NCBI GenBank assembly: GCA_003285105.1
Contig: CP030158.1
Span: 2,704,501 to 2,768,500 of the forward strand
Source of the DNA: Roseithermus sacchariphilus
GTDB lineage: Bacteria; Bacteroidota; Rhodothermia; Rhodothermales; MEBIC09517
Direction: 5' to 3'
DNA: 64,000 bases
The notes under the pieces were generated by a model. The model made no database searches. It was given only the letters and a program-made list of their open reading frames with translations, and was not told where the DNA came from. The position numbers were made by a program, and so were the translations under genes. Within the stretch, counting starts at the first letter, position 1. Each line of letters opens with the position of its first letter. Shown piece by piece: positions 2-20,398 of this stretch.

Positions 2-310
2 GGCTGCCTCGGGGTGCTCGTGGTGGCGGCGAGCAACTACGTGGTTCGAGCGGTCGGGGCCACGCTGTTCGCGGTGCTGCTGCTGCTGGGGCAGATCCTG
101 ACCTCGGCGCTGATCGATCACTTCGGGTGGATGGGCGAGATCCAGATCGCGATGACACCGATGAAGCTGCTCGGTCTGGCCCTGCTCTTCGCCGGTGCCC
201 TGCTGGTGCTGGCCGACGGTCGCCGGCCGGTCACTCCAGGGACAGATGCGCCGGCACCGGAGGGCAGCCGCAGGACTCACGAAGCATCAGCCGGGTCGGC
301 AGCGTCGTGA
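2..310 (+). CDS. DMT-family transporter, YdcZ (DUF606) type, C-terminal part
   Basis: Reading frame open from the left window edge, so the gene starts outside the window. About 103 residues are visible. They begin in a hydrophobic stretch and include a segment with a Gln-rich turn (LLLLGQILTSALIDHFGW) and a last helix (LLGLALLFAGALLVLA). The GQ...S..IDHFG pattern followed by a final helix is characteristic of the YdcZ/DUF606 group of small inner-membrane drug/metabolite transporters; substrate unknown. The tail after the last helix is hydrophilic and low in complexity. It overlaps by 80 bases the end of the convergent LacI-type gene, so either the tail is real or an earlier frame disruption extends it. 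Family assignment is fairly secure, function is not. Confidence 0.75.
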   Translation, partial: GCLGVLVVAASNYVVRAVGATLFAVLLLLGQILTSALIDHFGWMGEIQIAMTPMKLLGLALLFAGALLVLADGRRPVTPGTDAPAPEGSRRTHEASAGSAAS

Positions 311-1250
311 TCGGTTCGATATCGTCGCCGCCGAGCAGGGCCAGCAGCAGGTGCATGGCGTGCTCGCCCAGGTCCTGCATCGGCGAGCGGACGGTGCTGA
401 GCTGGGGGATCAGGTACTGCGCGGGGGGGATGTCGTCGAAGCCGGCGAGGGCGAGGTCGTCCGGGACGCGAACGCCGCGCTCGCGCAGGCCGAGCAGCGC
501 GCCGATGGCCATCGAATCGTTGGCGGCGAAGAGCGCGGTGGGGCGCGGTTCCAGGGCCAGCAGCGCCTCGACGGCCCGATAGCCCGATTCCCGCAGGAAG
601 TTGCCGTCCAGTTCCAGCGCCGGATCGGCCGGCAGGTCCAGCTCGCGCAGGGCGTCCCGGTAGCCGGCCAGCCGTTCTTCGGCGTCGTAGTTGCCGGCGG
701 GGCCTTTCAGAAAGGCGATGCGGCGGTGTCCGTGCGAGGCGAGGTGGCGGGTCATGGCCGCCGCGCCGGTCTGGTTGTCGAACCGTACGGTCGGCACGGC
801 GCCGTCGGCCGCGGCATTGAGCAGCACGATGGGCAGGTCGGGGGGGACGAGCGCGGTCAGCGAGGCGGCCTCCAGCCGCGGCCACATGACGATCAGCCCG
901 TCGACGCGGCCCAGCATGGTGCGGATCATCGTGCCGGCTTCCGCCTCGTCGCTGTGGGAGCTGGAGACGAGCAGGTGATACCCCTCCGTGCGGGCCATGC
1001 GCTCGATGCCCTGGCTGACTTTGGCGTAGAACTCGCCGTGCAGATCGGGCAACAGCACGCCGATCACGTTCGTCTTGCCCGTGGACAGGATGCGGGCGGT
1101 TTCGTTGGGAAGGTACTGGAGGGCTTCCATCGCCTCCAGCACGCGCTTGCGGGTGATCGCCAGGACCCGGTCGCTTCCGTTCAGCACCCGAGAAACCGTT
1201 GCGACGGAAACGCCGGCGCGTTCAGCAACTTGACGAATGGTGGCGGCCAT
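231..1250 (-). CDS. LacI-family transcriptional regulator
   Basis: 339 residues, the normal LacI/GalR length. I chose the ATG at 1250 because the helix-turn-helix begins right after it (ATIRQVAERAGVSVATVSRV, residues 3-22), followed by the hinge helix region ending near residue 60. The longer upstream frame adds only low-complexity residues. The rest is a periplasmic-binding-protein-like effector domain: VIGVLLPDLHGEF near 62-75, the ligand/dimer motif FDNQTG, and FAANDSMAIGALLGLRERG followed by LAGFDD near the C terminus. Such proteins repress catabolic or uptake genes until a sugar or derivative binds. A perfect LacI-type palindrome lies at 6623-6636 in front of the susC homologue, a plausible target although the CHAT operon lies between. 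Ligand unknown. Confidence 0.93.
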   Translation of the reverse strand: MAATIRQVAERAGVSVATVSRVLNGSDRVLAITRKRVLEAMEALQYLPNETARILSTGKTNVIGVLLPDLHGEFYAKVSQGIERMARTEGYHLLVSSSHSDEAEAGTMIRTMLGRVDGLIVMWPRLEAASLTALVPPDLPIVLLNAAADGAVPTVRFDNQTGAAAMTRHLASHGHRRIAFLKGPAGNYDAEERLAGYRDALRELDLPADPALELDGNFLRESGYRAVEALLALEPRPTALFAANDSMAIGALLGLRERGVRVPDDLALAGFDDIPPAQYLIPQLSTVRSPMQDLGEHAMHLLLALLGGDDIEPITTLPTRLMLRESCGCPPVPAHLSLE

Positions 1251-4400: not shown

Positions 4401-5063
4401 CGGCTCCTGCGCCGTTCGGGCGGTCGCCAGCGCCTCGGTGAGGGCCGCGTCGTGCTCGGCATCGGTGAGGAACGGCAGCAGGTGGATCAACACCCGGGCC
4501 CGGTGAACGGCCGCGTCCATCTGCCGGGCGGCGTCCAGGAGAGGGGCCGCGGCGGCGCGTGCGGCCGTCCCGCGCAGCCCGGGGGCCAGCGCAGCGAGGA
4601 CGCGCTCCCAGTCCCAGCGTCGCTCCTCCACCACACGACGCATCTCGGCGGTCAGGAGGTCGTCGCCCTGCGGCTCGGGCAGGCGCTTCACCAGCGCGGC
4701 CAGCGCGCGGGCGCGGTCCTCCTGGTCGTAGACGTCCGCCGTGATCTCCAGCGCCGCCAGCGCGGGGGCCAGCAACGCGTCCGGGAGGCGGTGGACCAGC
4801 AGCGGGAGATGCGGTAGCGTGCGCTCCAGCCACGCCCGGCGGATGGCTTCGGGGGCGTGCAGGAGCAGGCGGACCAGTGCCTCGTACCGGGCCGTCCGTC
4901 CCATGAAGCCGATCGACCGGACGGTGTTGAGGGCCGGATCGTACAGGTCTGCGGGCAGCAGCGGCGCGAGGTCGGCGAGGAGGTCCGGGAGGGGCCGCCG
5001 GTCCTTTCCGAGGAGCAGGGCGCGCAGATCGTCCAGCGGAGTCGATGAGGAACGTGTTTCCAT
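1434..5063 (-). CDS. Large CHAT-domain (caspase-like protease) protein with helical repeats and a polyglutamine tract
   Basis: 1209 residues. Residues 1 to about 455 are Leu/Ala-rich helical hairpins resembling HEAT/ARM-type repeats. Residues 462-484 are 23 consecutive glutamines, followed by an acidic Glu-rich and then a Pro/Arg-rich linker to about 590. Residues about 600-745 look like a beta-rich domain. The C-terminal part is a CHAT domain: a strand ending in YFYCHGG with His1064 and a second strand ending in FLNGC with Cys1109, the expected caspase-type His/Cys dyad about 45 residues apart. The fold then closes with ANAAGVLGTE and RRARLTLLQDGNPLGLVY. CHAT proteins are clan-CD proteases that usually act on specific partners in bacterial stress or defence systems. 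It is the last gene of a minus-strand unit with two small membrane proteins. Protease activity and target are inference. Confidence 0.85.
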   Translation of the reverse strand: METRSSSTPLDDLRALLLGKDRRPLPDLLADLAPLLPADLYDPALNTVRSIGFMGRTARYEALVRLLLHAPEAIRRAWLERTLPHLPLLVHRLPDALLAPALAALEITADVYDQEDRARALAALVKRLPEPQGDDLLTAEMRRVVEERRWDWERVLAALAPGLRGTAARAAAAPLLDAARQMDAAVHRARVLIHLLPFLTDAEHDAALTEALATARTAQEPTLLAALRPHVPASDRDALLQEAVALARQHDAPLDRAEALAAIAAQVEPFERGPLRDEIHALDPSDLDPWVVARWFDPAPEAEPPVLPAYLSPEQQAQVLAVIAGVSWPAQQAFFLVEMIPSLAPALRPRVLDLIAAFDEPAPRAQVLRALAPVLSDDLLPDTLAATLALADERWRLWVLDAFVAHRPALADDPLVAAQAPLFRERAAALLDRLDEEQQRTVLLEWIDAIWDHFGGSGPPAQQQQQQQQQQQQQQQQQQQQQQQEEASPPEVYDLQEPSGEAEEERAWEETAEEGGEDAGSWDDLAVPAPAGGGSAAGPPPSPAPHHGPPRSRRPAWWRPGGGAATTRPPRTEVVNTGFADPHRPDQPIRPYLPLIQGRAYYFWLEVGAPVVGAIDAVPTDLPREHLPDGARLTVALFGFDGEIELTAGADVGEIQIRPDRSVRVTRPVGRPEGLSDEALLDRRLFFPVHLPRRTGTFRLRCNLYYEQVLVQSHLVQARVVSGPVGRAGRSVLTTAARIARRLNGEALLARLLPSRLQTRIDYTLSHTLRPDRLARLEPHRLSLLLNDNGNGTHGFRFFGRDDQAAFKQDATLSGQELQNLIDQARGALRQAAWGDATPWHHQPYRYDGPADDERLRVDLVRLARWGYRFYDTLIDRLAAGGATDRVAIRTAVKTLKRLMQTPGYVQVASKDSARHVVPVALFYDHALDTTLPTERYRLCPAFLDALHTRTPLLTTACFQGHCPSTEHDDVVCPAGFWGFRHHIGLPVTIGGSLRDLATEIPVEATPQLTVAVSTDRAFVRRPAHEQALQGLRDDLGWHYAATRDDALALMQTTPAHLLYFYCHGGLQNDLPYLQVGAPEEHGYITRDLLRNRDIFWTAPQPLVFLNGCHTTALEPEQALNLVSGFIETANAAGVLGTEITVFEPLACAFAEECLRLFLDEVPIGEAVRRARLTLLQDGNPLGLVYIPFVIASLRMVRAGPQAPSPGEA

Positions 5064-6510: not shown

Positions 6511-6622
6511 TTGAAGAAAAAGGGCTTTTTCAAGGCCTGTGGCGCAGATTCGAGGGTGATGTTACAAAATCTGGGCAAGGGCATCGTTTTGTGCCGTTGA
6601 AAATTTCAAAGGCGTGCCGTAT

Positions 6623-6636
6623 TGTAAGCGCTTACA
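6623..6636. promoter_or_regulatory. Palindromic LacI-family operator upstream of susC
   Basis: TGTAAGCGCTTACA is a perfect 14-base palindrome with the central CG typical of LacI/CcpA-family operators. It ends 65 bases before the ATG of the susC homologue, where a repressor would block transcription. The LacI-type gene at 231-1250 is the nearest candidate regulator. Ten of these bases recur at 52904-52913 in front of acs. Confidence 0.65.
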
Positions 6637-6701: not shown

Positions 6702-9700
6702 ATGGGTCAGCCTACCACGAGACTACTCATCAGCCTGTGCGTCTGGTTGCTCGCCGGTGTGAGTCTGGCGAACGGACAGGCGCGCGAGGTGACCGGAACC
6801 GTCACGGATGCGGGCAGCGGGTTTCCGCTCCCCGGCGTCAACATCGTCGTGCAGGGCACCAGCACCGGGACGGCCACCGACATCGAGGGCCGTTACCGCA
6901 TCAACGTGCCGGGGCCGGATGCCGTGCTGGTCTTCTCCTTCGTAGGCTACGTGCCTCAGGAGATCCGCGTCGGCGATCAGACGCAGATCGACGTGGCCCT
7001 GGCTGAAGACGTGGCGTTGCTGGAAGACGTCGTCGTCGTCGGCTATGGCACCCAGCGCAAGGAAGACGTGCTGGGGTCGGTGTCGTCCATCGACGCCGAC
7101 GATGCCCGGGTGGGGCTCGTCACGGCGCCGGATCAGATGATCCAGGGGCGCGTGGCCGGCGTGACGGTGGTGCAGAACAACGGGGAGCCCGGGGCCGGGT
7201 TCAACATCCGCATCCGGGGCGGCACCTCGATCAGCGCCAGCAACGAGCCGCTCTACGTCATCGACGGCGTGCCGATCGACAACGCGAGCGTGTCGCCGGG
7301 TGGAGAGGGGGTCAGCAGCGCGGCGCCGCGTAACCCGCTCAACCTCATCAACCCCAACGACATCCAGTCGATCACCATCCTCAAGGATGCCTCGGCCACG
7401 GCCATCTACGGCAGCCGCGCCGCCAACGGCGTCGTGCTGATCACGACGAAGCAGGGCCAGCAGGGCCGCGTCACGGTCGATTACGACGGCTTCGTGTCCA
7501 GTTCCACGATGACGCGCAAGATCGACCTGCTCTCGGGGGAGGAATACATCAATTTCCTTGAAGGCGCCATCGAGCGCCGGGAGCTCGGCTGGATCGATAC
7601 CGACGACGACGGCGTCGTCGATCAGATCCGTGACGATAACGGCAACGGCGTCCCCGACATCCTCGATCAGCAGGGATCGGCCGATACCGACTGGCAGGAC
7701 GCGGTGACCCGCACGGGCATTTCCCATTCGCACAACCTGGCCCTCTCCGGGGGCACGCAGAACACGCAGTACCGGGCTTCGGTGAGCTACCTGAACCAGC
7801 AGGGCATCATCATCAGCTCGGGCCTGGAACGCCTCACCGGCCGCCTCAATGCCAACCACGAGGCGCTCGACGGGCGGCTGCGCTTCAACCTGAACTTCCA
7901 GAGCTCCTACGCCGAGGACGATTACCTGCCCTACCAGCAGACCGGGGGCTTCGAGGGCGGCCTGTTTACCAACGTCTTCGCCTTCAACCCGACGTTCCCG
8001 GTGCGGCAGGACGGGGATTACTTCGAGATCGGGGAGGGCGCGCAGAGCGTCCGGAACCCGGTGGCGCTGGCCGAGGAGATCGAGGACTTCGGCAAGACCA
8101 CGCGCACGCTCGGCAACCTCTCGGTCGAGCTGGACCTGATCGAGGGGCTGACGGCGCAGGTCAACGTCGGCGCCGACCGTGCGCAGTCCAGTCGCCGGAT
8201 GTACTTCCCGAAGTCCAATCCGGTCGGGGCGATCGATCTGGGGCGGGCGCTGCAGCGCAACCGGGAACGTACGTCGCAGACCTTCCAGAGCTACCTGACC
8301 TACCGCAGCACGCTGGCCGACGCACACAACCTGGAGCTGCTGGGCGGCTACGAGTACTCCGTCTTTGACACGGAGGAATTCGGGGCGGAGGCGCGTAACT
8401 TCGTCACGGATGCCTGGTCGTACAACAACCTGGGCGGCGGGGCCGATGAGGTCAAGCCCTACTCGTTCCGCGAGAACAGCAAGCTGGCATCGTTCTTTGG
8501 CCGGCTCAACTACAACTTCAACGAGCGCTACTACCTGACCGGCGTGCTGCGCTACGACGGGTCGTCGCGGTTCGGGGCCAACAACAAGTGGGCCCTGTTC
8601 CCCGCCGTGCAGGTCGGCTGGCGGCTCAGCGAGGAGGCGTTCCTGCAGGACGTGGACGTCCTCTCCGAGTTGCGCCTCCGGGTGGGCTACGGCGTCAACG
8701 GCAACCAGGAGATCGGGAACTACCGCTCGCTGGCGCTGCTGGCCCCGAATCCGGACGCGCGGGCCGTCATCGGTGGCATCCCGGTGACGGGCGTCGCCCC
8801 GGCCACCTATGCCAACCCGGACCTGCGCTGGGAGGAGACGACGTCGTACAACGTCGGCATCGACTACGGCTTCCTGAACGGACGCTTCACCGGCACGCTG
8901 GAATACTATCGCAAGGACACCCGGGACCTGCTCCTGGAGGTGCCCGTGCCGCAGCCGGCTCCCCTGCCCACGCGTCTGGAAAACATCGGGGAGGTCAAAA
9001 ACGAAGGCCTCGAGTTCTCGCTCGACGCGCTCGCCGTCGACGGAACCGACTTCAGCCTCCTGCTGGGCGCCGTCTTCACGACGAACCGCAACGAGGTGGT
9101 CAGCCTGGGCGGGCGTGAGCGGATCATCACCGGCACGGTGAGCGGCCGCGGACAGTCCGGCGTGCAGTCCCAGATCATCGTCCCGGGCCAGCCGCTCGGC
9201 ACGTTCTACGGCCCCGTCTTTGCCGGCATCGTGGACGGCGTGCAGACCTTCGTCGACCTCGACGGCGACGGGGAGGTCGAGGTGACGGGCGACGACCGGA
9301 CGTTCATCGGCAACGCCCAGCCGGACTTCACCTACGGCTTCCGCACGCAGGCCTACTGGGGCGCGTTCGACTTCAGCATGTTCCTGCGGGGTGAGTACGG
9401 ACGCGACGTGTTCAACAACACGGCGCTCGTCTACCAGACCAAGAGCGGCGTGACGCAGAACAACAACTTCATCAAGGCGGCGCTGGAGAGCGACGAGCTG
9501 GTCAACGAGCCGGCCAAGTTCTCCGACCGCTGGATCGAGAACGGGTCGTTCCTGCGCATGGACAACATCCAGCTGGGCTACACGATTCCGGTGACGCAGC
9601 TGAGCGAGCAACTGCGCACGGCGCGGGTCTACTTCTCGGTCAACAACGTCTTCGTGATCACGCCCTACACCGGCTACGATCCCGAGGTCAACACCGACGC

Positions 9701-9782
9701 CGGGCTGGCCACGATCGGGATCGACTACACGAACTACCCGCGCCCCCGCACCTTCACGCTCGGGGTGAGCCTCGGCTTCTGA
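6702..9782 (+). CDS. SusC/RagA-family TonB-linked outer-membrane protein
   Basis: 1026 residues from ATG 6702; the frame is open further upstream but only through repeats, and this start gives a signal peptide (about 1-25, ending NGQA). Residues about 28-108 form a carboxypeptidase-regulatory-like beta-sandwich (GTVTDAGSGFPLPGVNIVV). A TonB-box-like stretch (VVVVGYGTQ, from 110) follows, then a plug domain to about 245 with KDASATAIYGSRAANGV. The remainder is a 22-stranded-type barrel ending in the classic FTLGVSLGF, with terminal Phe. SusC proteins import oligosaccharides or peptides across the outer membrane with SusD as lid, energised by TonB. It is followed by susD 71 bases later. A LacI-type operator lies 65 bases upstream. 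Confidence 0.95.
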   Translation: MGQPTTRLLISLCVWLLAGVSLANGQAREVTGTVTDAGSGFPLPGVNIVVQGTSTGTATDIEGRYRINVPGPDAVLVFSFVGYVPQEIRVGDQTQIDVALAEDVALLEDVVVVGYGTQRKEDVLGSVSSIDADDARVGLVTAPDQMIQGRVAGVTVVQNNGEPGAGFNIRIRGGTSISASNEPLYVIDGVPIDNASVSPGGEGVSSAAPRNPLNLINPNDIQSITILKDASATAIYGSRAANGVVLITTKQGQQGRVTVDYDGFVSSSTMTRKIDLLSGEEYINFLEGAIERRELGWIDTDDDGVVDQIRDDNGNGVPDILDQQGSADTDWQDAVTRTGISHSHNLALSGGTQNTQYRASVSYLNQQGIIISSGLERLTGRLNANHEALDGRLRFNLNFQSSYAEDDYLPYQQTGGFEGGLFTNVFAFNPTFPVRQDGDYFEIGEGAQSVRNPVALAEEIEDFGKTTRTLGNLSVELDLIEGLTAQVNVGADRAQSSRRMYFPKSNPVGAIDLGRALQRNRERTSQTFQSYLTYRSTLADAHNLELLGGYEYSVFDTEEFGAEARNFVTDAWSYNNLGGGADEVKPYSFRENSKLASFFGRLNYNFNERYYLTGVLRYDGSSRFGANNKWALFPAVQVGWRLSEEAFLQDVDVLSELRLRVGYGVNGNQEIGNYRSLALLAPNPDARAVIGGIPVTGVAPATYANPDLRWEETTSYNVGIDYGFLNGRFTGTLEYYRKDTRDLLLEVPVPQPAPLPTRLENIGEVKNEGLEFSLDALAVDGTDFSLLLGAVFTTNRNEVVSLGGRERIITGTVSGRGQSGVQSQIIVPGQPLGTFYGPVFAGIVDGVQTFVDLDGDGEVEVTGDDRTFIGNAQPDFTYGFRTQAYWGAFDFSMFLRGEYGRDVFNNTALVYQTKSGVTQNNNFIKAALESDELVNEPAKFSDRWIENGSFLRMDNIQLGYTIPVTQLSEQLRTARVYFSVNNVFVITPYTGYDPEVNTDAGLATIGIDYTNYPRPRTFTLGVSLGF

Positions 9783-9789
9783 CGCCCCC

Positions 9790-9826
9790 GTGCCCGGCCT
9801 GCCGGCGCGCCGGATGGGCCGGGCAC
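9790..9826 (+). promoter_or_regulatory. Strong hairpin between susC and susD
   Basis: GTGCCCGGCC (9790-9799) pairs perfectly with GGCCGGGCAC (9817-9826) and encloses a second hairpin CCGGCG/CGCCGG (9802-9813). No uridine tract follows, so it is more likely an mRNA stabilising or partial-attenuation structure than a full terminator. It could set the susC:susD transcript ratio; that is inference. Confidence 0.5.
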
Positions 9827-9853
9827 CGGCTCGCCTTTCGTTACCCTGACTCT

Positions 9854-11443
9854 ATGACGACGCATACAGCCATGAACGTCTTTCGACTACATTCCACGGC
9901 CTGGGCCACCGGGATCCTCCTCCTGCTGGTGCTGGGACCGCTCGTGCTGCTGCAGGGCTGCACCGACCTGGACGAGGAGGTCTTCGGGGCGGTGACGGCC
10001 GAGAACTTCTACCAGACCGAGGACGAGATCATCGCCGCGCTGGCGCCGCTCTATGCCCAGCTCCGCGGTGTCCTCGATGATTACCACAACCTGAGCCAGG
10101 TCAGCACCGACGAAACCATCGTGCCCACGCGCGGCTCCGACTGGTTCGACGGCGGCATCTGGCAGAACACCCACCGCCACACCTGGGACGCCAACCTCAG
10201 CTTCCTCGACGGCGCCTGGGTGACGGCCTACACCGGCGTGGCCCGGGCCAACGGCCTGCTCCAGACCCTGGAGACGGCCGACGTGCCCAACAAAGAAGCC
10301 ATCGTGGCCGAGACGCGCGCCCTGCGGGCCTTCTACTACTACCTGCTCATGGACCTCTTCGGCAACATCCCCCTCGTCGGGGACGAGCCGGGTGAGTACA
10401 CCGTGGATCAGGAAAACCTGCCGCCGACCGAGCCGCGCCCGGAGGTTTTCGCGTTCATCGAGTCCGAACTGCTGGCGGCGCGGGGAAACCTGCCCGTCCA
10501 GCATCCGGCCGAGGGCTACGGGCGCCTGACGCAGGGCGCCGTGGATGCCCTCCTGGCGAACATGTACCTCAACGCGCAGGTCTTCTCCGGCACGGTGACC
10601 ACCAGCGGGCTGACGCCGGGGAATGCGCGCTGGCAGGACGCCATCGACGCGGCCGACCGCGTGCTCAACTCGGGCGTCTACAGCCTCTCCGAGGACTGGG
10701 CCAGCATCTTCGCGCCGGGCAACGCGGAGAACCCCGAGCACATCTTCGTCGTGGCGCACCTGCCGCAGGACGGCCTCGGCATGAACTTCATCATGCGCAC
10801 GCTCCACTACAACCAGTACGTCCCCTCGCCCTGGAACGGCTTCTCGACCCTGGCCGAAACCTTCGGCAAGTTCGATGAGGACGACAGCCGGCGCGGCATC
10901 TTCCTGGTCGGGCAGGCCTACAGCTTCATCACGGGCGAGCCCGTCAACAACCGGCAGGACGAGCCGCTGATCTTCACGCCGGAGATCGACGACTTCACCG
11001 ACGCCACCGAAAACGAAGGCGTGCGCATCCTGAAGTTCCCCCCGGATCCCAGCAGCGTCGGCCCCAACCACGGGAACGACTACCCCTTCTTCCGGGTGGC
11101 CGAGATGTACCTGATCAAGGCCGAGGCGCTCAACGAGCTGAACGGCCCGAACCAGGAGTCCATCGACCTGCTGAACGACCTGCGCGCGCGCGTCTTCGAG
11201 CCGGACGAGCCGCTCGTCCTGGCCGACTATCCGACGCAGCAGGCCCTGCGGGATCGCATCCTCGACGAGCGGCTCTATGAGCTGTTCTACGAGGCCAAGC
11301 GCCGCCAGGACCTCATCCGCCACGGCAAGTTTACGCAGGCCTGGGCCTTCAAGGCCGAAAGCCAGCCCTATCGCATCCTCTTCCCGATTCCGCAGACGCA
11401 GCTCGACGCCAACCCGATGCTGCAGCAGAACCCGGGCTACTGA
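9854..11443 (+). CDS. SusD/RagB-family nutrient-binding lipoprotein
   Basis: 529 residues from ATG 9854 (an ATG at 9872 would shorten it by six). A lipoprotein signal peptide ends at LLQGC with the lipidated Cys36, followed by the typical SusD start (DLDEEVFGAVTAENFYQTEDE). The TPR-type helical core is visible in TRALRAFYYYLLMDLFGNIPL and in the C-terminal segment FRVAEMYLIKAEALNE, and the end carries the DERLYELFYEAKRRQDLIRHG motif. SusD proteins sit on the cell surface and close over SusC to capture substrate. Immediately downstream of the SusC homologue; the substrate cannot be deduced from sequence. Confidence 0.95.
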   Translation: MTTHTAMNVFRLHSTAWATGILLLLVLGPLVLLQGCTDLDEEVFGAVTAENFYQTEDEIIAALAPLYAQLRGVLDDYHNLSQVSTDETIVPTRGSDWFDGGIWQNTHRHTWDANLSFLDGAWVTAYTGVARANGLLQTLETADVPNKEAIVAETRALRAFYYYLLMDLFGNIPLVGDEPGEYTVDQENLPPTEPRPEVFAFIESELLAARGNLPVQHPAEGYGRLTQGAVDALLANMYLNAQVFSGTVTTSGLTPGNARWQDAIDAADRVLNSGVYSLSEDWASIFAPGNAENPEHIFVVAHLPQDGLGMNFIMRTLHYNQYVPSPWNGFSTLAETFGKFDEDDSRRGIFLVGQAYSFITGEPVNNRQDEPLIFTPEIDDFTDATENEGVRILKFPPDPSSVGPNHGNDYPFFRVAEMYLIKAEALNELNGPNQESIDLLNDLRARVFEPDEPLVLADYPTQQALRDRILDERLYELFYEAKRRQDLIRHGKFTQAWAFKAESQPYRILFPIPQTQLDANPMLQQNPGY

Positions 11444-11460
11444 GATCGGGTTGCATAGGC

Positions 11461-11506
11461 CCGTCCGGGCGGTGCCGGGCTTCACGCCGCGGCACCGCCC
11501 GGACGG
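11461..11506 (+). promoter_or_regulatory. Perfect 16-bp hairpin downstream of susD
   Basis: CCGTCCGGGCGGTGCC (11461-11476) pairs without mismatch with GGCACCGCCCGGACGG (11491-11506) around a 14-base loop, 17 bases after the susD stop. There is no T-tract, so a conventional intrinsic terminator is doubtful. It may stabilise the upstream transcript or reduce read-through to the FG-GAP genes. Confidence 0.6.
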
Positions 11507-11575
11507 CGAGCCTGTGAGGAGCCTCGCCCCCGCGGGTGGGGCTCCGTCGTTTCGACGTGTGGACGCGGCAGAATC

Positions 11576-14500
11576 ATGGTGTGTACGACAGGGTGGCTGG
11601 GCCGGGGGGCGCTCGTGGCGCTCCTGGGAATCGTGGCGGCGGCCTGTGGGCCGGATCCCCGGACGGAGATCCCGGTCCGGTCGCTGTTCACCCGGCTCCC
11701 GGCCTCCTATACCGGCATTGCCTTCGAGAACCGGCTGACGGACACGGAGGCGTTCAACGTGTTCACCTACCGCAACTACTACAACGGCGGCGGCGTGGGC
11801 ATCGGCGACGTCAACGGCGACGGCCTGCCGGACCTGTACCTGACGGCCAACCAGCAGCCCAATCGCCTCTACCTCAACCGGGGCGGCTTCCGCTTCGAAG
11901 ACGTCACCGACCGCGCCGGCGTCGCCGGCACCCGCGCCTGGTCCACCGGCGTCAGCCTGGCCGACGTCAACGGCGACGGCTGGGTCGACATCTACGTCTG
12001 CAACGCGGGAAACCACGAGGGCGACGACAAGGCCAACGAGCTCTTCATCAACCTCGGCCCGGATGACGAGGGCATCCCTCGCTTCGAGGAGCAGGCAGCC
12101 GCCTACGGCCTGGCCGACGAAGGCTACGGCACCCATGCCGCGTTCTTCGACTACGACCGCGACGGCGACCTCGACCTGTATCTGCTCAACAACTCCTTCC
12201 GCCCCGTCAGCTCCTTCGGGCTGCGCAACATCCGCCACGAGCGCCATCCCTACGGCGGCGACAAGCTCTTCCGCAACGACGGCGGCCGCTTCGTCGACGT
12301 CAGCGAGGCCGCCGGCATCTACGGCAGCGAGATCGGCTTCGGCCTGGGCGTCACCGTGGGCGACGTCGACCGCGACGGCTGGCCGGACATCTACGTCTCG
12401 AACGACTTCTTCGAACGGGATTACCTCTACCTCAACCAGGGCGACGGCACCTTCCGCGAGGTGCTCGAAGAACGCATGCCCTCGATCAGCCTCTCCTCGA
12501 TGGGCGCGGACATGGCCGACGTCACCGGCGACGGCTTCCCGGAGATCTACGTCACCGACATGCTGCCCGAGGACGACGTCCGCCTCAAGACGACCTCCTC
12601 CTTCGAGTCCTGGAACGTCTATCAGGCCAAGCTGCGCAACGATTACCACCATCAGTTCATGCGCAACACGCTCCAGCGCAACAACGGGGACGGTACCTTC
12701 AGCGAGATCGGGCAGATCGCCGGCGTCGCGGCGACGGACTGGAGCTGGGGCGCGCTCATGGCGGACCTCGACAACGACGGCCACCTCGACATCTTCGTCT
12801 CCAACGGCATCTTCAAGGACCTGACGGATCAGGACTTCATCGCCTATTTCGCCGACGAGGTCAACCGGGCCGCGGCGCGGGGGCGGCGGGATCTGCCGTT
12901 CCTGGACCTGCTCGCGCGGATCCCGTCGAACCCGATCCCCAACTATGCCTTCCACAACGCCGGCGACGGCACGTTCGTGAACCGGGCCGCCGAATGGGGC
13001 CTTGCCGAGCCGAGCTTTTCCAACGGCGCCGCCTACGGCGACCTGGACGGCGACGGCGACCTGGACCTGGTCGTCAACAACGTCAACATGGAGGCCTTCG
13101 TCTTCCGCAACGAAACCGACTCGCTGCGGGACCACCACTACCTGAAGGTGCGCCTGGAGGGCGAGGCGCCCAACCCCGACGGCCTCGGAGCGACGCTGAC
13201 GGTGCGGGCGGGCGAGGCGCTCTTCTACCGCGAACAGATGCCCATGCGCGGCTTCCAGTCGAGCGTCGACCGGGTGCTGCACGTGGGCCTGGGCACGCGG
13301 ACGCGGGTCGACTCGGTGGTGGTCCGCTGGCCCGACGGCCGGCGGCAGGTCTGGACAGACGTGCCGGCCGATCAGACGCTCACCGCCCGGCAGGCGGAAG
13401 CCGTCTTCCCGGATGAAAACCGCCTCCGCCAGACGCCGCCGGCGTCGCCCCGCCCGTTCGCCGACGTGACGGCGCAGATGGCCGTGGACTATACGCACCG
13501 GGAAAACCCTTTCGTGGACTTCCACCGTGAGGGTTTGCTGCCGAAGATGCTCTCGACCGAAGGCCCGGCGCTGGCCGTGGGGGACGTGAACGGGGACGGG
13601 CTGGACGACCTGTACGTCGGCGGCGCCAAGGAGGCGGCCGGGACGCTGCTGCTGGCGCGGCCGGGCGGGGGCTTCCGCCCCGCCGGCGCCGACGTCTTCG
13701 AGGCCGATGCCGTCTCGGAGGACGTGGGCGCGGCGCTGTTCGATGCCGACGGGGACGGCGACCTCGACCTGTACGTGGTCAGCGGCGGGTACGAGTTCTC
13801 GCCGCGGGCGCCGGCCCTCGAGGATCGGCTGTACCTCAACCAGGGCCGGGGGCGCTTCCGCAAGGCCGAGGGCGCGCTGCCCCGTATGGCCTCCAGCGGG
13901 TCGTGCGTGGTGCCGGCGGACGTCGACGGGGACGGCGACCTGGACCTGTTCGTGGGCGGGCGCTTGCAGCCCTGGCGCTACGGCTATCCCGCCTCCAGCC
14001 ACCTCTTGCTGAACGACGGACGCGGGCACTTCACGGACGCCACCGACGCCGCCGCCCCGGTGCTAAAGGAACTGGGCATGGTGACCGACGCCGCCTGGGT
14101 GGACGTCAACGGCGACGGCGCGCTCGACCTCGCCGTCGTCGGGGAGTGGATGCCGATCACGGTGCTGCTCAACGATGGCGCAGGCCGCTTCTCGCGGCCG
14201 ACCGCCCCCGACGGCCTCGCCGGGACGCACGGGCTCTGGAACCGCCTCCTGGCCGCCGACTTCGACGGCGACGGCGACACGGACTTCGTGGTCGGCAACC
14301 TGGGCCTCAACACGAAGCTGAAGGCGGCCCCGGACGAGCCCATGACGCTGCACGTGGCCGACTTCGACGGCAACGGGGCGGTGGAGCAGGTGCTCAGCTA
14401 CTACAAGCAGGGCCGCAGCTACCCGCTGCCGCTGCGCAACGAACTGCTCGGCCAGCTCAACGTCTTGAAGAAGCGGTTCCCCACCCACCGCGACTACGCC

Positions 14501-14974
14501 GGCCGGACCCTCGAAGAGGTCCTCACGCCCGAGGAACGCGCGGCCGCCGTCGTGCAATCCGTCACCCATCTGGCGTCCGTCTACGTCGAGAACCGCGGCG
14601 ACGGCACCTTCCGCGTGACGCCGCTGCCCTACGAGGCACAGTTTGCCCCGATCTATGGCCTGCTGGCCGGGGACGCCGATGGGGACGGGCACCTGGATCT
14701 GCTGGTGGCGGGCAACTTCTACGGCGTGCAGACGAACCTGGGGCGGATGGACGCCAGCTACGGCCTGCTGCTCCGGGGCGACGGGCAGGGCGGCTTCGAC
14801 CCCGTGCCCGCGCGCGCCAGCGGCTTCCGCGTCGACGGGCAGGTGCGGCACCTGGCGTGGGTGCGGCAGGGCCGGGCGCGCTACGTCGTCGTCGCCCGCA
14901 ACGACGCGCCGCTGCTGTTTTTCCGTCAGAGGCCGCCCGGGGAGAGCCCGGCCGGCACGGAGGACCGGACATGA
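11576..14974 (+). CDS. FG-GAP/VCBS-repeat lipoprotein with ASPIC/UnbV domain (paralogue 1)
   Basis: 1132 residues from ATG 11576. Lipoprotein signal peptide ending AAACG (Cys24). The protein is built from repeated beta-propeller blades with Asp-rich Ca2+ loops of the form GDVNGDGLPDLY, DYDRDGDLDLY and DLDGDGDLDLV. One propeller occupies about residues 60-510 and a second about 625-1110. Between them, near 518-609, lies an ASPIC/UnbV domain (GLGATLTVRAG ... RGFQSSVDRVLHVGLG ... VVVRWPDGR). Such CRTAC1-like surface lipoproteins are widespread in Bacteroidota next to SusCD but have no defined biochemical role; calcium-dependent glycan or protein binding is the usual guess. Its stop overlaps the start of a close paralogue. 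Confidence 0.9.
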   Translation: MVCTTGWLGRGALVALLGIVAAACGPDPRTEIPVRSLFTRLPASYTGIAFENRLTDTEAFNVFTYRNYYNGGGVGIGDVNGDGLPDLYLTANQQPNRLYLNRGGFRFEDVTDRAGVAGTRAWSTGVSLADVNGDGWVDIYVCNAGNHEGDDKANELFINLGPDDEGIPRFEEQAAAYGLADEGYGTHAAFFDYDRDGDLDLYLLNNSFRPVSSFGLRNIRHERHPYGGDKLFRNDGGRFVDVSEAAGIYGSEIGFGLGVTVGDVDRDGWPDIYVSNDFFERDYLYLNQGDGTFREVLEERMPSISLSSMGADMADVTGDGFPEIYVTDMLPEDDVRLKTTSSFESWNVYQAKLRNDYHHQFMRNTLQRNNGDGTFSEIGQIAGVAATDWSWGALMADLDNDGHLDIFVSNGIFKDLTDQDFIAYFADEVNRAAARGRRDLPFLDLLARIPSNPIPNYAFHNAGDGTFVNRAAEWGLAEPSFSNGAAYGDLDGDGDLDLVVNNVNMEAFVFRNETDSLRDHHYLKVRLEGEAPNPDGLGATLTVRAGEALFYREQMPMRGFQSSVDRVLHVGLGTRTRVDSVVVRWPDGRRQVWTDVPADQTLTARQAEAVFPDENRLRQTPPASPRPFADVTAQMAVDYTHRENPFVDFHREGLLPKMLSTEGPALAVGDVNGDGLDDLYVGGAKEAAGTLLLARPGGGFRPAGADVFEADAVSEDVGAALFDADGDGDLDLYVVSGGYEFSPRAPALEDRLYLNQGRGRFRKAEGALPRMASSGSCVVPADVDGDGDLDLFVGGRLQPWRYGYPASSHLLLNDGRGHFTDATDAAAPVLKELGMVTDAAWVDVNGDGALDLAVVGEWMPITVLLNDGAGRFSRPTAPDGLAGTHGLWNRLLAADFDGDGDTDFVVGNLGLNTKLKAAPDEPMTLHVADFDGNGAVEQVLSYYKQGRSYPLPLRNELLGQLNVLKKRFPTHRDYAGRTLEEVLTPEERAAAVVQSVTHLASVYVENRGDGTFRVTPLPYEAQFAPIYGLLAGDADGDGHLDLLVAGNFYGVQTNLGRMDASYGLLLRGDGQGGFDPVPARASGFRVDGQVRHLAWVRQGRARYVVVARNDAPLLFFRQRPPGESPAGTEDRT

Positions 14975-17900
14975 GACGAAGAAGGCTGAACAGGAGACGC
15001 TGGACGACCCCGGGCGCCGGGCTGATGGCCCTCCTGCTCGCGGGCGGGCTGGCGGCCTGCGGGCCGGAGACGCCCCCGCTCTTCGAACGGCGCCCGGCCT
15101 CGCACACCGGCGTCGACTTCGTCAATGAGCTGCCCGAGGCGGCGGACTTCAACATCCTCAACTACCTCTACTACTACAACGGCGGCGGCGTCGCCGTGGG
15201 GGACGTCAACGACGACGGCCTGCCGGATCTCTACTTCACCGCCAACCTCGGCCCGAACCGGCTCTACCTCAACCGGGGCGGCTTCCGCTTCGAGGACGTC
15301 ACCGAACAGGCCGGCGTGGCCGGGGACGCTTCCTGGACGACCGGCGCCACCATGGCCGACGTCAACGGCGACGGCCGCCTGGACCTCTACGTCACCGTCG
15401 TCAGCGACTACCTCGACCGGCAGGGGCACAACCAGCTCTTTCTCAACCTGGGCGCCGCAGAGCCGGGGCAGGTGCCCACCTTCAGCGAGCAGGCCGCCGC
15501 CTACGGCCTGGACTTCCGCGGCTTCGGCACGCACGCCGCCTTCTTCGACTACGACCGCGACGGCGACCTGGACGCCTATCTGCTCAACCACACGACCCAT
15601 TACGAGGGCGCCATCGGGCGGGCCGCCCTCCGCGAAGAAGACCACCCCCGCGCCGGCGACCGTCTCCTGCGCAACGACGGCGACCGCTTCGTCGACGTCT
15701 CCCGCGAAGCCGGCATCTACAGCGGCGTCACCGGCTACGGCCTGTCGGTGGTGGTGAGTGATCTCAACCGCGACGGCTGGCCGGACCTCTACGTCGGTAA
15801 CGACTTTCATGAGAACGACTACCTCTACCTCAACAACGGCGACGGCACCTTCACCGAGGCCATCCGCGACGCCACGGGGCACACCAGCCGCTTCTCCATG
15901 GGCAGCGACGCCGCCGACGTCAACCGCGACGGCTGGCCGGACCTGGTCGTGCTGGACATGCTCCCCTCCGACGAAGCCATTCTGAAGACCTCGGCCAGCG
16001 CCGACACCTACGAGCTGGCCGAGCTGAAGCAGCGCCTCGGCTACCACGTGCAGTATGCCCGCAACACGCTCCAGCTCAACCGCGGCCGCGCCCGCTTCAG
16101 CGAGATCGGCTACCTGGCCGGTATTTACGCCACCGACTGGAGCTGGGCGGCGCTGCTGGCAGATTACGACCTCGACGGCTGGTTGGACCTGTTCGTCTCC
16201 AACGGCATCTACCGCCGGCCCAACGACCTCGATTACGTCAACTACATCTCCGACGCCGCCATCCAGGCCTCGCTCGAACAGGGCATCACCGAGGAAAACC
16301 TGACCCTCCTCGAGCGGATGCCGCAGATCCCGCTGCCCAATGCCGCCTTCCGCAACCGGGGCGACCTCACCTTCGAGGACGTTGCCGAGGCCTGGGGGCT
16401 GGCCGATCCGGGCTTCTCGAACGGGGCCGCCTATGCGGACCTGGACAACGACGGGGACCTGGACCTGGTGATGAACAACATCAACGAGCCGGCCTGGATC
16501 TACGAGAACCGGGCGGATCGGCTGCCGGACCGCCATGCCCTGACGATCCGGCTCGTGGGGGAGCCGCCCAACACCTTCGGCATCGGAGCGCAGGTGTGGA
16601 TGCGCGTGGGCGAGGCGCAGCTCGTGCGTGAGCAAAGCCCGGTGCGGGGGTTCCAGTCGTCCGTCGACCCCCGGCTGCACGTCGGCCTCGGGGCGGCGAC
16701 GACGGTGGACACGCTGACGGTGATCTGGCCGGATGGGCGCTTCCAGACGCTGACGGACGTCCCGGCCGGTGAGCCGCTCACCCTGCGTCAGGCCGATGCC
16801 GCGGGCACGTTCGTCTGGCCGGACCCCGTGCCGGAGGAGCCGCTGTTCGAGGATGTCACCGAGGCGCTCGCCCCGGCCTGGCGGCACGCGGAAAACACGT
16901 TCGTGGACTTCAACCGGGAGGGGCTCATGCCGCACAAGCTCTCGATGGAAGGCCCCGCACTGGCCGTCGGCGACGTCGACGGCGACGGGCTGGAGGACGT
17001 GTTCGTGGGCGGGGCCAAGTGGCAGGCGGCGCGCCTGTTTCGCCAGCAGGCAGACGGCCGCTTCCGCGCCACCGCCCCGGATCCCTGGCAGGCGGACAGC
17101 CTCCACGAGGACGTCGACGCCGCGTTCTTCGACGCCGACGGCGACGGCGACCTGGACCTGTTCGTCGTCAGCGGCGGCAACGAGTTCTGGGGAGAGGCCG
17201 AGCCGCTGCGCGACCGGCTCTACCTCAACGACGGCCGCGGCGGCTTCAGCCGGGACCGGCAGGCGCTGCCGGATCACTTCGCCAACGGCGGCTGCGTCGC
17301 CCCGGGCGACTTCGACGGCGACGGCGACCTGGACCTGTTCGTCGGCAGCCGCGTCGTCTCCCGGCACTACGGGCTCATCCCGCAGAGCGTCCTGTACGAG
17401 AACGACGGCACCGGGCGTTTTACGGACGTCACGCACACCCGCGCCGAGGGCCTGGCCGAGGCCGGCATGGTCAGCGATGCCGCCTGGACGGACGTCGACG
17501 GCGACGGCGCGCTCGACCTCGTCGTCGTCGGGGAGTGGATGCCGGTGCGGGTCTTCGTGCAGCGGGCCGGGCGATTCGTCGACGCCACCGCCGAACGGGG
17601 GCTGGCCGGCACCGAGGGCTGGTGGAACACCGTTCTCCCCTACGACCTCGACGGCGACGGCGACGAGGATCTGGTGCTGGGCAACCTGGGGCTGAACTCG
17701 TACGTGACCGCGTCGCCGGAGGAGCCGGCCCGCCTCTACGTCCACGACTTCGACGGCAACGGGAGCCTCGATCAGATCCTGACGGTCTACCGGCACGGCG
17801 TCAGCTATCCCATCGCCACGCGCGACCAGTTGCTCAAGCAGATCCAGCCGCTGCGCAAGGACTTTCCCACCTACACCGCCTTCGGGGCGCGGCAGGTGAC

Positions 17901-18399
17901 GGACCTCTTCCCGGCCGCCCGGCTCGATTCGGCCGTGGTGCGCGAGGCCCGGACGATGGCCTCCGCCGTGGCGTGGAACGAAGGGGTGCAGGGGTTCTCG
18001 CTGCAGGCGCTGCCGATGGAGGCGCAGTTTGCCCCCGTGCAGGCCGCCCTGGCCGCCGACGTCGACGGCGACGCGCACACCGACCTGCTGCTGGCCGGCA
18101 ACTTCTACGGCGTCGGGCCGATGCGGGGCCGCTACGATGCCAGCTACGGGCAACTCCTGCGCGGCGACGGACGCGGGGGCTTCGAGGCCGTCCCGCCGTA
18201 CCGGGCCAACCTGTGGCTGCACGGGGACGTGCGAGCCCTCGCGATGCTCCAGCGCCCGGACGGGTCGCGGCTGCTGGTGGTCGCGCGCAACGACGACGGG
18301 TTGCAGATCGTCCGTCTTCGCGCGGTGGAACCGGTGCGGGACGAGCCGCCCGGCCGGGCCGTTCGGCCGCGGCCCGCGGGGACCGACGCCGTGCGGTAG
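14971..18399 (+). CDS. FG-GAP/VCBS-repeat lipoprotein with ASPIC/UnbV domain (paralogue 2)
   Basis: 1142 residues. The ATG at 14971 overlaps the previous stop (ATGA), which points to translational coupling. Arg-rich N terminus, then a lipoprotein signal ending LAACG (Cys30). Same architecture as the preceding gene: propeller with many DxDGDxD loops, an ASPIC/UnbV domain near residues 521-607 (RGFQSSVDPRLHVGLG, VIWPDGR), and a second propeller. The two proteins are clearly homologous along their whole length but well diverged, so the tandem pair is an old duplication and may form a heteromeric surface complex. Followed after 30 bases by the haloperoxidase-like gene, apparently in the same operon. 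Confidence 0.9.
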   Translation: MRRRRLNRRRWTTPGAGLMALLLAGGLAACGPETPPLFERRPASHTGVDFVNELPEAADFNILNYLYYYNGGGVAVGDVNDDGLPDLYFTANLGPNRLYLNRGGFRFEDVTEQAGVAGDASWTTGATMADVNGDGRLDLYVTVVSDYLDRQGHNQLFLNLGAAEPGQVPTFSEQAAAYGLDFRGFGTHAAFFDYDRDGDLDAYLLNHTTHYEGAIGRAALREEDHPRAGDRLLRNDGDRFVDVSREAGIYSGVTGYGLSVVVSDLNRDGWPDLYVGNDFHENDYLYLNNGDGTFTEAIRDATGHTSRFSMGSDAADVNRDGWPDLVVLDMLPSDEAILKTSASADTYELAELKQRLGYHVQYARNTLQLNRGRARFSEIGYLAGIYATDWSWAALLADYDLDGWLDLFVSNGIYRRPNDLDYVNYISDAAIQASLEQGITEENLTLLERMPQIPLPNAAFRNRGDLTFEDVAEAWGLADPGFSNGAAYADLDNDGDLDLVMNNINEPAWIYENRADRLPDRHALTIRLVGEPPNTFGIGAQVWMRVGEAQLVREQSPVRGFQSSVDPRLHVGLGAATTVDTLTVIWPDGRFQTLTDVPAGEPLTLRQADAAGTFVWPDPVPEEPLFEDVTEALAPAWRHAENTFVDFNREGLMPHKLSMEGPALAVGDVDGDGLEDVFVGGAKWQAARLFRQQADGRFRATAPDPWQADSLHEDVDAAFFDADGDGDLDLFVVSGGNEFWGEAEPLRDRLYLNDGRGGFSRDRQALPDHFANGGCVAPGDFDGDGDLDLFVGSRVVSRHYGLIPQSVLYENDGTGRFTDVTHTRAEGLAEAGMVSDAAWTDVDGDGALDLVVVGEWMPVRVFVQRAGRFVDATAERGLAGTEGWWNTVLPYDLDGDGDEDLVLGNLGLNSYVTASPEEPARLYVHDFDGNGSLDQILTVYRHGVSYPIATRDQLLKQIQPLRKDFPTYTAFGARQVTDLFPAARLDSAVVREARTMASAVAWNEGVQGFSLQALPMEAQFAPVQAALAADVDGDAHTDLLLAGNFYGVGPMRGRYDASYGQLLRGDGRGGFEAVPPYRANLWLHGDVRALAMLQRPDGSRLLVVARNDDGLQIVRLRAVEPVRDEPPGRAVRPRPAGTDAVR

Positions 18400-18429
18400 G
18401 CGGTATAACCTCACGCGAACCAGCGTTCG

Positions 18430-19830
18430 ATGATGTTTCTGCGGACGATGCCAGGACGTACGTTGATAGGGGCGCTCCTGCTCGGGGCCATGGTGGGCTG
18501 TGCGCGGCCGGAGCCGGCCTACCGGACGCAGCCGCCGGACCCGGAATGGCTGCACGAGGCCGTGAAGCAGGTGACCGACGTGATGGTGCACGACATCTTC
18601 AGCCCGCCCCAGGCGAGCCGGGTCTATGCCTATGCGTCCATCGCGGCGTACGAAGCGCTGCGGCCGGCCTATCCGGGGTACCGCTCGCTGGCCGGCCGGC
18701 TCAACGAGCTTCAGCCCGTGCCCGAGCCGGAGCCGGATCAGACCTATTACTTCCCGCTGGCCGGTGTGCAGGCGCTGCTGCGCGTCGGGCAGGCCATGGT
18801 GTTCACGGAAGACCGGATCGCCGCGTATCGCGACCGGGTGCACGCCCGGTTCCGGGCGCTCGGCGTGCCCGAGCCGGTCTTTGCCCGCTCCGTGGCCTAC
18901 GGGGACGCCGTGGCGGCGCACATCCTGGCCTGGGCGAATCAGGATCGCTACCGGGAGACCCGCAGCTACCCGAAGTACACCGTCACCGACGCCCCCGGCC
19001 GCTGGCGCCCGACGCCGCCGGCCTACCTCGACGGCATAGAGCCGCACTGGCGCGAACTCCGCCCGTTCGTGCTGGACTCGGCCGCCCAGTTCGCCCCGCC
19101 GCCGCCGGTGCCCTACGACATGACCCCGGGCAGTCCGTTCTACGAGCAGGTCCGCGAGGTGTACGAGGTCGGTCGGGACCTGACGCGGGAGCAGGCCTCC
19201 ATCGCGGCGTTCTGGGACTGCAACCCGTACGTCATGCACACGCGCGGTCACGCCATGTTCGCCACGAAGAAGATCACGCCGGGCGGGCACTGGATCGGCA
19301 TCACCGCCATCGCCGCCCGGCAGGCCGGGGCGGATCTGATGCAGGCCGCCGAGGCCTATGCCGTGACGTCCATCGCGCTGGCCGACGCGTTCATCAGCAA
19401 CTGGGACGAGAAGTACCGCAGCAACCTCGTCCGCCCGGAGACCGTCATCAACCAGCACCTCGACGAGGCCTGGACGCCGCTGTTGCAGACGCCGCCGTTC
19501 CCGGAGTACACCAGCGGCCACAGCGTCATCTCGACGGCCGCCGCCCTCGCGCTGACGGCGCTCTTTGGCGAGGCCGTGGCGTTCGACGACACCACCGAGG
19601 TGGAGTACGGCCTGCCCGTGCGGTCGTTCACCTCCTTCGTGGAGGCCTCGCAGGAAGCCGCGATCAGCCGGCTCTACGGCGGGATCCATTACCGGATGGC
19701 CGTGGAGCACGGCGTCGAGCAGGGGCGTGCCGTGGGCCGCTTCGTGCTCGACCGCCTCGGCATGCCGTCGCCGGCGCTGGCGGCGGAGCAGGGGCCGGAT
19801 GCGACGCCCCGGCGGACCGCGCTGCGCTGA
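18430..19830 (+). CDS. Vanadium-dependent haloperoxidase-family (PAP2-like) lipoprotein
   Basis: 466 residues; lipoprotein signal ending MVGC (Cys24). The helical body carries the active-site signature of the vanadium haloperoxidase/acid phosphatase superfamily: PEYTSGHSVIS near residues 358-368 and SRLYGGIHYRMAVEHG about 45 residues later, with the vanadate/phosphate-binding Ser-Gly-His and the second His. Family members oxidise halides with H2O2 or act as phosphatases; from sequence alone I cannot choose. A lipid anchor places it in the periplasm or on the outer membrane beside the FG-GAP lipoproteins. It lies 30 bases after the preceding gene, so it is probably part of the SusCD-FG-GAP transcription unit. 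Confidence 0.88.
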   Translation: MMFLRTMPGRTLIGALLLGAMVGCARPEPAYRTQPPDPEWLHEAVKQVTDVMVHDIFSPPQASRVYAYASIAAYEALRPAYPGYRSLAGRLNELQPVPEPEPDQTYYFPLAGVQALLRVGQAMVFTEDRIAAYRDRVHARFRALGVPEPVFARSVAYGDAVAAHILAWANQDRYRETRSYPKYTVTDAPGRWRPTPPAYLDGIEPHWRELRPFVLDSAAQFAPPPPVPYDMTPGSPFYEQVREVYEVGRDLTREQASIAAFWDCNPYVMHTRGHAMFATKKITPGGHWIGITAIAARQAGADLMQAAEAYAVTSIALADAFISNWDEKYRSNLVRPETVINQHLDEAWTPLLQTPPFPEYTSGHSVISTAAALALTALFGEAVAFDDTTEVEYGLPVRSFTSFVEASQEAAISRLYGGIHYRMAVEHGVEQGRAVGRFVLDRLGMPSPALAAEQGPDATPRRTALR

Positions 19831-19936
19831 ACGGGGCCGCTGCGAAGAACCGGCGGGGGACGGCGTCGTAAGAATCGGGAGACGGCCTCGCGCCCGGCGT
19901 GGAGGCGCCCTTCATCACCCATCCCACAGCGACGCC

Positions 19937-20398
19937 ATGCGCACATCATCGAGAACAAGGTTCGCTCCGGGTGTGGTTCTGCCCGCCGTGTTGCTCCTCC
20001 TGGCCGGGTGCGCGTCTTCCGGCCAGGCCCGGGTAGAGGCCACGGACGCATCGGCCCGGAAGGCCGACACCATCGACGAAGAAGAGATCGACCGGCGGCC
20101 GGTGAACAGCGTGCAGGAACTGCTCAGGGGTCGTGTAGCCGGGGTGCAGGTCTATGAAGCCCCCGGTGGAGGGATCGCCGTCCGCATCCGCGGGGTGTCG
20201 TCGATCCAGGGGAGCAACGAGCCCCTTTACGTCGTCGACGGGATGCCCTACCAGCCAGGGCCGGGTGGGCGGATCGACATCCACCCGCGCGACATCGAGC
20301 GCATCGAGGTGCTGAAGAACGCGTCGGCCACGTCCATGTACGGCATGCGCGGGGCCAACGGGGTCATCGTCATCACGACGAAGCGCCCCGGCCAGTGA
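19937..20398 (+). CDS. Lipoprotein consisting of a lone TonB-receptor plug domain
   Basis: 153 residues from ATG 19937. Signal peptide with lipobox LLAGC (Cys25), a short linker, then from about residue 50 a complete TonB-dependent receptor plug: ELLRGRVAGVQVYE, VRIRGVSSIQGSNEPLYVVD, IERIEVLKNASATSMYGMRG and VIVITTKRP just before the stop. There is no barrel at all. The domain closely follows the plug of SusC proteins (compare residues 110-245 of the SusC homologue here). Standalone plug lipoproteins occur in Bacteroidota but their role is not established; regulation of, or decoy for, TonB or SusD contact is possible. Located 106 bases after the haloperoxidase gene, same strand. Confidence 0.85.
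   Translation: MRTSSRTRFAPGVVLPAVLLLLAGCASSGQARVEATDASARKADTIDEEEIDRRPVNSVQELLRGRVAGVQVYEAPGGGIAVRIRGVSSIQGSNEPLYVVDGMPYQPGPGGRIDIHPRDIERIEVLKNASATSMYGMRGANGVIVITTKRPGQ

Follow-up and report, generated by a model that had tools for sequence, protein, structure and literature searches.

A vanadium iodoperoxidase-type lipoprotein encoded with SusCD and ASPIC/UnbV propeller lipoproteins in Roseithermus sacchariphilus, and its probable link to the uptake of small glucosides

What could a haloperoxidase be doing among the genes of a nutrient importer? The question is raised by a 64,000-nt stretch of the Roseithermus sacchariphilus genome (contig CP030158.1, positions 2,704,501 to 2,768,500; hereafter the window, in which all position numbers are given), where six plus-strand genes encode a SusC/RagA receptor, a SusD/RagB lipoprotein, two large ASPIC/UnbV lipoproteins (ASPIC1 and ASPIC2), a lipoprotein of the vanadium-haloperoxidase (VHPO) family and a lipoprotein made of a TonB plug only. 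To our knowledge, the iodoperoxidases of Bacteroidota have a crystal structure yet no agreed biological role, and are usually discussed in connection with seaweed iodine. Here, we report that relatives carry the peroxidase gene within operons for small glucosides; SusCD uptake loci are already known, and it is this setting that is new relative to the open-access library searched. The reading we favour, and consider moderately probable, is an operon for glucoside capture at the surface, in which an iodoperoxidase lipoprotein is a subunit and through which a small glucose-containing sugar is imported. Because iodoperoxidase genes of three phyla lie beside ASPIC genes, SusCD and enzymes for trehalose, sucrose and alpha-1,2-glucosides, the function of the peroxidases can be tested directly.

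Gene families were assigned with Pfam and NCBIfam profiles, which bore out the six genes, all on a single strand, as an earlier note on this DNA had named and placed them (Table 1). From SusC to the plug gene, the successive gaps are 71, 132, -4, 30 and 106 bp; with TIGR04056 and PF07980 above cut-off, the first two genes form a SusCD pair. The N-termini of ASPIC1, ASPIC2, the peroxidase and the plug protein match the lipobox pattern, while that of SusD (LLQGC) falls outside the pattern and is lipobox-like by eye. None of the six genes encodes a glycoside hydrolase (GH) or a peptidase. The recurrence of the gene order in three phyla puts the set far beyond chance.

Table 1. Features of the operon and of its candidate control elements in the window.
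Feature	Position	Strand	Evidence and remarks
SusC/RagA TonB-linked outer-membrane receptor	6702..9782	+	TIGR04056 (E=1.4e-261, 871 bits); TIGR04057, PF13715, PF07715
SusD/RagB lipoprotein	9854..11443	+	PF07980 (E=7.9e-32), PF14322
ASPIC1 lipoprotein, FG-GAP repeats flanking the ASPIC/UnbV domain on both sides	11576..14974	+	FG-GAP_3, FG-GAP, UnbV_ASPIC
ASPIC2, second lipoprotein of the ASPIC1 type	14971..18399	+	Same domains; overlaps ASPIC1 by 4 nt
Vanadium iodoperoxidase (Zg-VIPO1) type lipoprotein, PAP2/haloperoxidase	18430..19830	+	PF01569; match to 4CIT
Plug-only lipoprotein (lipobox and TonB plug)	19937..20398	+	PF07715, TIGR04057
Sigma70-like hexamers TTGAAA-17-TATTGT	6597..6625	+	Overlap the palindrome TGTAAGCGCTTACA; 1 found against 0.7 expected in shuffles; weak alone
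Perfect palindrome TGTAAGCGCTTACA, LacI-family operator-like	6623..6636		65 bp before the susC start
LacI-family regulator, candidate for the operon	231..1250	-	PF00356 match

The peroxidase matches the iodoperoxidase Zg-VIPO1 of Zobellia galactanivorans (4CIT/4USZ) over residues 12-450 (E=1.2e-160), with 55.3% identity over 434 aligned residues. The seven residues that we take to form the vanadate pocket of VIPO1 (Lys324, Arg331, Ser358, Gly359, His360, Arg410 and His416, in VIPO1 numbering) are all identical in the window protein, as are Tyr263, Trp321, Asp322 and Phe353. The pocket is nearly invariant, each residue being kept in at least 104 of the 108 aligned peroxidase sequences, and 105 of them have the lipobox cysteine. 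Judged from these residues, the protein is a predicted vanadium haloperoxidase of the Zg-VIPO1 type that would oxidise iodide, which makes the surface halogenating step envisaged in the earlier note plausible.

The PAP2 fold (PF01569), with the same Lys/Arg/Ser-Gly-His/Arg/His pocket, also allows another activity: with phosphate in place of vanadate, the enzyme would be a surface phosphatase acting on a phosphorylated glucoside or glycerol derivative, and SusCD would import the product. Genes for glycerol kinase and glycerol-3-phosphate dehydrogenase are near the peroxidase gene in eight loci of relatives, and the spread of the family well beyond seaweed bacteria speaks against a strict iodide role. 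However, the closest characterised homologue is an iodoperoxidase, and no recurrent phospho-glycosidase occurs among the neighbour clusters. Moreover, the PAP2 phosphatase motif SRX5HX3D ends with an Asp four residues after the last His. The window peroxidase lacks this motif with its terminal Asp; the corresponding position is Ala424, and it is Ala in 102 of the 108 aligned sequences. We consider a phosphatase quite unlikely, and for the aromatic or phosphorylated substrate suggested earlier, the neighbourhoods examined offered nothing in favour of either.

How widely the set is kept was assessed by a scan for the peroxidase in one genome per species (84,980 species), which yielded 80 loci in Bacteroidota, Rhodothermota and Gemmatimonadota. 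Among all the loci considered in this work, three pairs (L031 and L124, L017 and L087, L094 and L121) are apparently the same genomes twice and are not independent. An ASPIC gene lies directly upstream of the peroxidase gene in 41 of the 63 loci with at least 3 kb of upstream sequence, and SusC or SusD is found beyond the first ASPIC gene in 17 of the 18 loci whose flank extends far enough. The order SusC-SusD-ASPIC-(ASPIC)-VHPO is kept in all three phyla. The co-occurrence that had been named beforehand as a test, with its absence as the refuting outcome, is thus present, and it supports a single SusCD-linked set that includes a lipoprotein of the vanadium-haloperoxidase family. Homologues of the peroxidase occur in 74 of 394 genomes that sample the phylum evenly, and close homologues in 123 of 300 genomes of one family, which we take to be Flavobacteriaceae, so that what these enzymes do concerns a large part of the environmental Bacteroidota. 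In a tree, the Gemmatimonadota form one group (support 99) near the Rhodothermota rows; this position is compatible with transfer, which we do not claim because the neighbouring supports are only 86-90. In the open-access library searched, we found no paper that joins a haloperoxidase with UnbV or FG-GAP and with SusC, SusD or TonB; one names SusD and haloperoxidase apart.

The characterised VIPO1 itself belongs to this arrangement, because a 99%-identical copy in one genome (G182) is encoded directly behind three tandem ASPIC genes. Zg-VIPO1 thus resembles the window peroxidase in sequence, vanadate pocket, lipoprotein-type N-terminus and gene position after ASPIC/UnbV genes. The two differ in that the nearest SusCD pair in G182 is about 20 kb away, whereas in the window SusCD is directly upstream and the halide specificity is a prediction. 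An SGLT-type symporter gene is divergent from the VIPO1 gene of G182. Also near the VIPO1 locus of G182 is a gene for an HD-domain protein with a Pycsar effector (PycTM) domain (L121:194-1444).

What such a machine could import is suggested by the genes next to the peroxidase gene in relatives. When the non-core neighbours were clustered across loci, the recurrent clusters were SSS symporters, GH37, GH13, GH65, ROK kinase, MFS, glycerol kinase and glycerol-phosphate dehydrogenase. As GH37, GH65 or GH13 stands alongside the peroxidase gene in 32 of the 67 relatives' loci with long flanks, the peroxidase family is a small-glucoside system resembling a polysaccharide-utilisation locus (PUL), and the window is a reduced member of it. 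The earlier statement that this is no normal PUL, for want of a glycoside hydrolase, holds for the window's own genes and fails for the family. The neighbours run in the same direction as the peroxidase gene in all or nearly all cases (GH37 trehalase 26/26, GH65 17/17, GH13 25/26, ROK 10/10), and they can be very close, with trehalase within 125 bp in 13 loci and GH65 within 90 bp in nine. The GH37 proteins are closest to periplasmic trehalase, the GH13 proteins to amylosucrase and the GH65 proteins to FjGH65A, the kojibiose hydrolase (alpha-1,2-glucosidase) of Flavobacterium johnsoniae (PMC8626586). Both SSS symporters tested are nearer to SGLT/vSGLT (1.5e-54, 1.1e-68) than to the iodide symporter (2.1e-19, 2.3e-16), and a sodium/iodide symporter as a neighbour was rejected on this ground.

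Tight linkage is also seen when whole genomes are considered. In 74 of them, 16 of the 22 short GH65 genes lie within 15 kb of the peroxidase gene, against 0.36 expected from uniform placement, and so do 11 of the 37 trehalase genes (0.56 expected). Counted once per genus, 8 of 14 short GH65 genes are near it (P about 2e-9). The longer, phosphorylase-type GH65 provides a built-in control: none of the 30 is within that distance, and a link to the ordinary GH65 phosphorylase was rejected. In the loci of Saprospiraceae, the peroxidase gene has GH13 on one side and a symporter on the other, also where its immediate upstream neighbour is not an ASPIC gene, and because of this pattern we ascribe the sugar link to the peroxidase itself. 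It is conceivable that the peroxidase, the ASPIC proteins and the sugar enzymes have no function in common and that their genes, all for surface proteins, merely share genomic islands; gene content does differ by lineage, some loci have the peroxidase alone, and the window keeps only the core. Such hitch-hiking would hardly account for the common direction, for gaps of tens of bases across three phyla, or for the zero count of a related but different GH65 class, and we regard it as very unlikely.

Individual loci give an idea of the range of these sugar genes. Downstream of the peroxidase, a Rhodothermota locus (L001) has a plug-type lipoprotein, an SSS symporter, a PfkB kinase, an amylosucrase-type GH13 and a HAD hydrolase, and a Rhodothermaceae locus (L030) has a 3-keto-disaccharide hydrolase (DUF1080), a GMC oxidoreductase, Gluconate_2-dh3, an isomerase-like gene and Gfo/Idh. 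Two genomes are of the same taxonomic order as R. sacchariphilus: in G034 a further hydrolase-like gene with GH116/MGH1-like matches lies between ASPIC2 and the peroxidase gene, and in G352 a GH97 gene lies upstream. The branched-dextran PUL FjDexUL, with its GH65 kojibiose hydrolase (PMC10316084), is comparable in its SusC/SusD core with extra lipoproteins, and the relatives' loci carry FjGH65A-type GH65 and other alpha-glucosidases. Unlike in the PULs of Bacteroidota, CRTAC1-like ASPIC propellers and a haloperoxidase here replace SusE/F and the endo-acting surface glycanases, the relatives' enzymes are of disaccharide type, and the window set is without any hydrolase. The L030 genes recall the 3-ketoglycoside pathway, in which the DUF1080 protein BT2157 is a 3-ketotrehalose hydrolase (PMC9007349); no such gene adjoins the window operon.

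Could the sugar genes serve the peroxidase rather than the reverse? In an iodine operon, HOI or I2 would be made at the surface and imported, and the sugar genes would feed a sugar oxidase that supplies H2O2. A scheme of this kind has been proposed for the iodine-accumulating Arenibacter C-21, whose iodine uptake requires glucose, oxygen and calcium (PMC5064120); it would suit a Zg-VIPO1-type enzyme, the 12-13 calcium-loop motifs per ASPIC protein, and the GMC oxidoreductases near the peroxidase in five loci. On the other hand, the neighbouring symporters are SGLT-like and not iodide-symporter-like, and next after the GMC gene of L030 comes one for a Gluconate_2-dh3 subunit, pointing to a dehydrogenase instead of an H2O2-making oxidase. 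Furthermore, hydrolases for trehalose and alpha-1,2-glucosides would be unnecessary for supplying glucose, and Chitinophaga and Gemmatimonas, for example, which are not known as marine lineages, have the set as well. We consider an iodine operon unlikely.

We argue that the six genes would form one co-transcribed operon, and that its products would assemble into a complex at the cell surface, there to bind a small sugar that contains glucose and bring it into the cell. The cargo would most likely be a glucoside that is non-reducing or alpha-linked, like trehalose, sucrose, kojibiose or glucosylglycerol. TonB-driven import would fall to the SusC/SusD pair, and the two ASPIC lipoproteins could be large propellers that act in the complex as scaffold or bind its ligand. 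The peroxidase, co-expressed with sugar uptake, would use vanadate and H2O2 to oxidise iodide, and perhaps other substrates, near the cell surface. Its contribution is the weak part of the mechanism: hypoiodite may act against neighbours or prey, whose lysis would free trehalose, sucrose or glucosylglycerol, or the enzyme may dispose of H2O2 or modify a ligand.

Several points weigh against this glucoside-capture reading. An ASPIC gene is not directly upstream in 22 of the 63 loci, and about half of the relatives' loci have no GH37, GH65 or GH13 inside the flank. Iodide oxidation is established for a homologue of 55% identity and predicted for the window protein, whose surface position is presumed from the lipobox by itself. 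In the relatives, susC is not preceded by any exact match to the operator type of the window; CG-centred palindromes of a related look were seen in L042 and L047 only. Moreover, the whole genome of R. sacchariphilus has no match to trehalase (GH37), GH65, GH97 or amylosucrase (the last with the L001 protein as query); as these are all absent, no sugar enzyme ties down the substrate there. Nor is there, among the six genes, a carbohydrate-active enzyme beside SusCD of the kind that marks a PUL. The genome does hold 11 DUF1080 matches elsewhere, none near the palindrome sites described below, and these matches, together with the lack of trehalase, GH65 and GH97, suggest that the organism may process disaccharides by a 3-ketoglycoside route. 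As a broader and distinctly more tentative proposal, the VIPO-type 'haloperoxidases' of three phyla might belong to the core of SusCD machines of a new class, as a subunit under sugar control, and not mainly be a halogen defence; where small glucosides are imported, CRTAC1-like propellers would keep an enzyme that oxidises (or transfers phosphate) at the gate, and a chemical step unrecognised so far would be added to the uptake of disaccharides or compatible solutes.

Control by sugar is suggested for the window operon too, because the putative LacI-type palindrome TGTAAGCGCTTACA before susC recurs at sugar-dehydrogenase loci. It has a single match in the window, where 0.01 would be expected with one mismatch allowed, and the single contig of 4.81 Mb that makes up the genome has four palindromes of its class, three of them identical, where the base composition of the window would lead one to expect 0.017. 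The second copy precedes an isomerase-like and Gfo/Idh gene pair, and the third lies between a Gfo/Idh gene and a run of SDR, LarA-like, 6-phosphogluconate dehydrogenase and phosphofructokinase genes; genes of the Gfo/Idh and isomerase-like kinds again recall the 3-ketoglycoside pathway. The LacI-family gene at the window's left edge is one of nine such regulators above cut-off in the genome. A pattern scan of the window for promoters and terminators gave site numbers not above chance. The fourth palindrome, TGTAACCGGTTACA (L145:9061; G000:C1:2703561), is about 2 kb from that LacI gene and precedes a gene whose product has a type IX secretion tail, with a receptor-like gene next to it. One of the three TGTAAGCGCTTACA sites is adjoined by an apparent CRISPR array followed by a Cas7/CasC-like gene (L143:10433-13865; G000:C1 about 1235400-1238900), both recognised by eye from translations, the array by its repeat-derived reading frames.

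The locus also supplies a functional context for the ASPIC/UnbV and plug-only lipoproteins, for which we found none in the open-access library searched. ASPIC1 and ASPIC2 are 54% identical and have PF13517, PF01839 and PF07593 above cut-off; their 12 and 13 calcium-loop motifs of the DxDxDGxxD type, on both sides of the ASPIC domain, agree with the calcium-loop description given earlier. The AlphaFold2 model of ASPIC1 (pLDDT 90, pTM 0.91) has its nearest solved fold in cartilage acidic protein 1 (CRTAC1, 9etn; E=5e-26, TM 0.72 by target length), which is also the best sequence match and likewise combines an FG-GAP propeller with an ASPIC domain. The bacterial proteins differ from CRTAC1 in being lipoproteins and in having FG-GAP repeats on both sides of the ASPIC domain; at about 1130 residues, they are about twice as long as the solved CRTAC1 chain.

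The plug of the plug-only lipoprotein stops just past the SusC/RagA signature. Homologues that likewise terminate shortly after the signature stand beside the peroxidase gene in genomes of Rhodothermota type (L001, L031, L126) and also in Gemmatimonadota (L003, L004, L022), where they are on the opposite strand. Such a protein could occupy or gate a SusC barrel.

Two further proteins were seen near these genes. In the window, 1434-5063 on the minus strand encodes a 1209-residue protein with a long glutamine tract and, by eye, a CHAT-like C-terminal part. In 11 loci of Cytophagia and Flavobacteriia (L007, L009, L013, L016, L017, L034, L036, L037, L045, L050 and L075), a lipoprotein-like protein of about 200 residues that has no Pfam match is encoded between the ASPIC genes.

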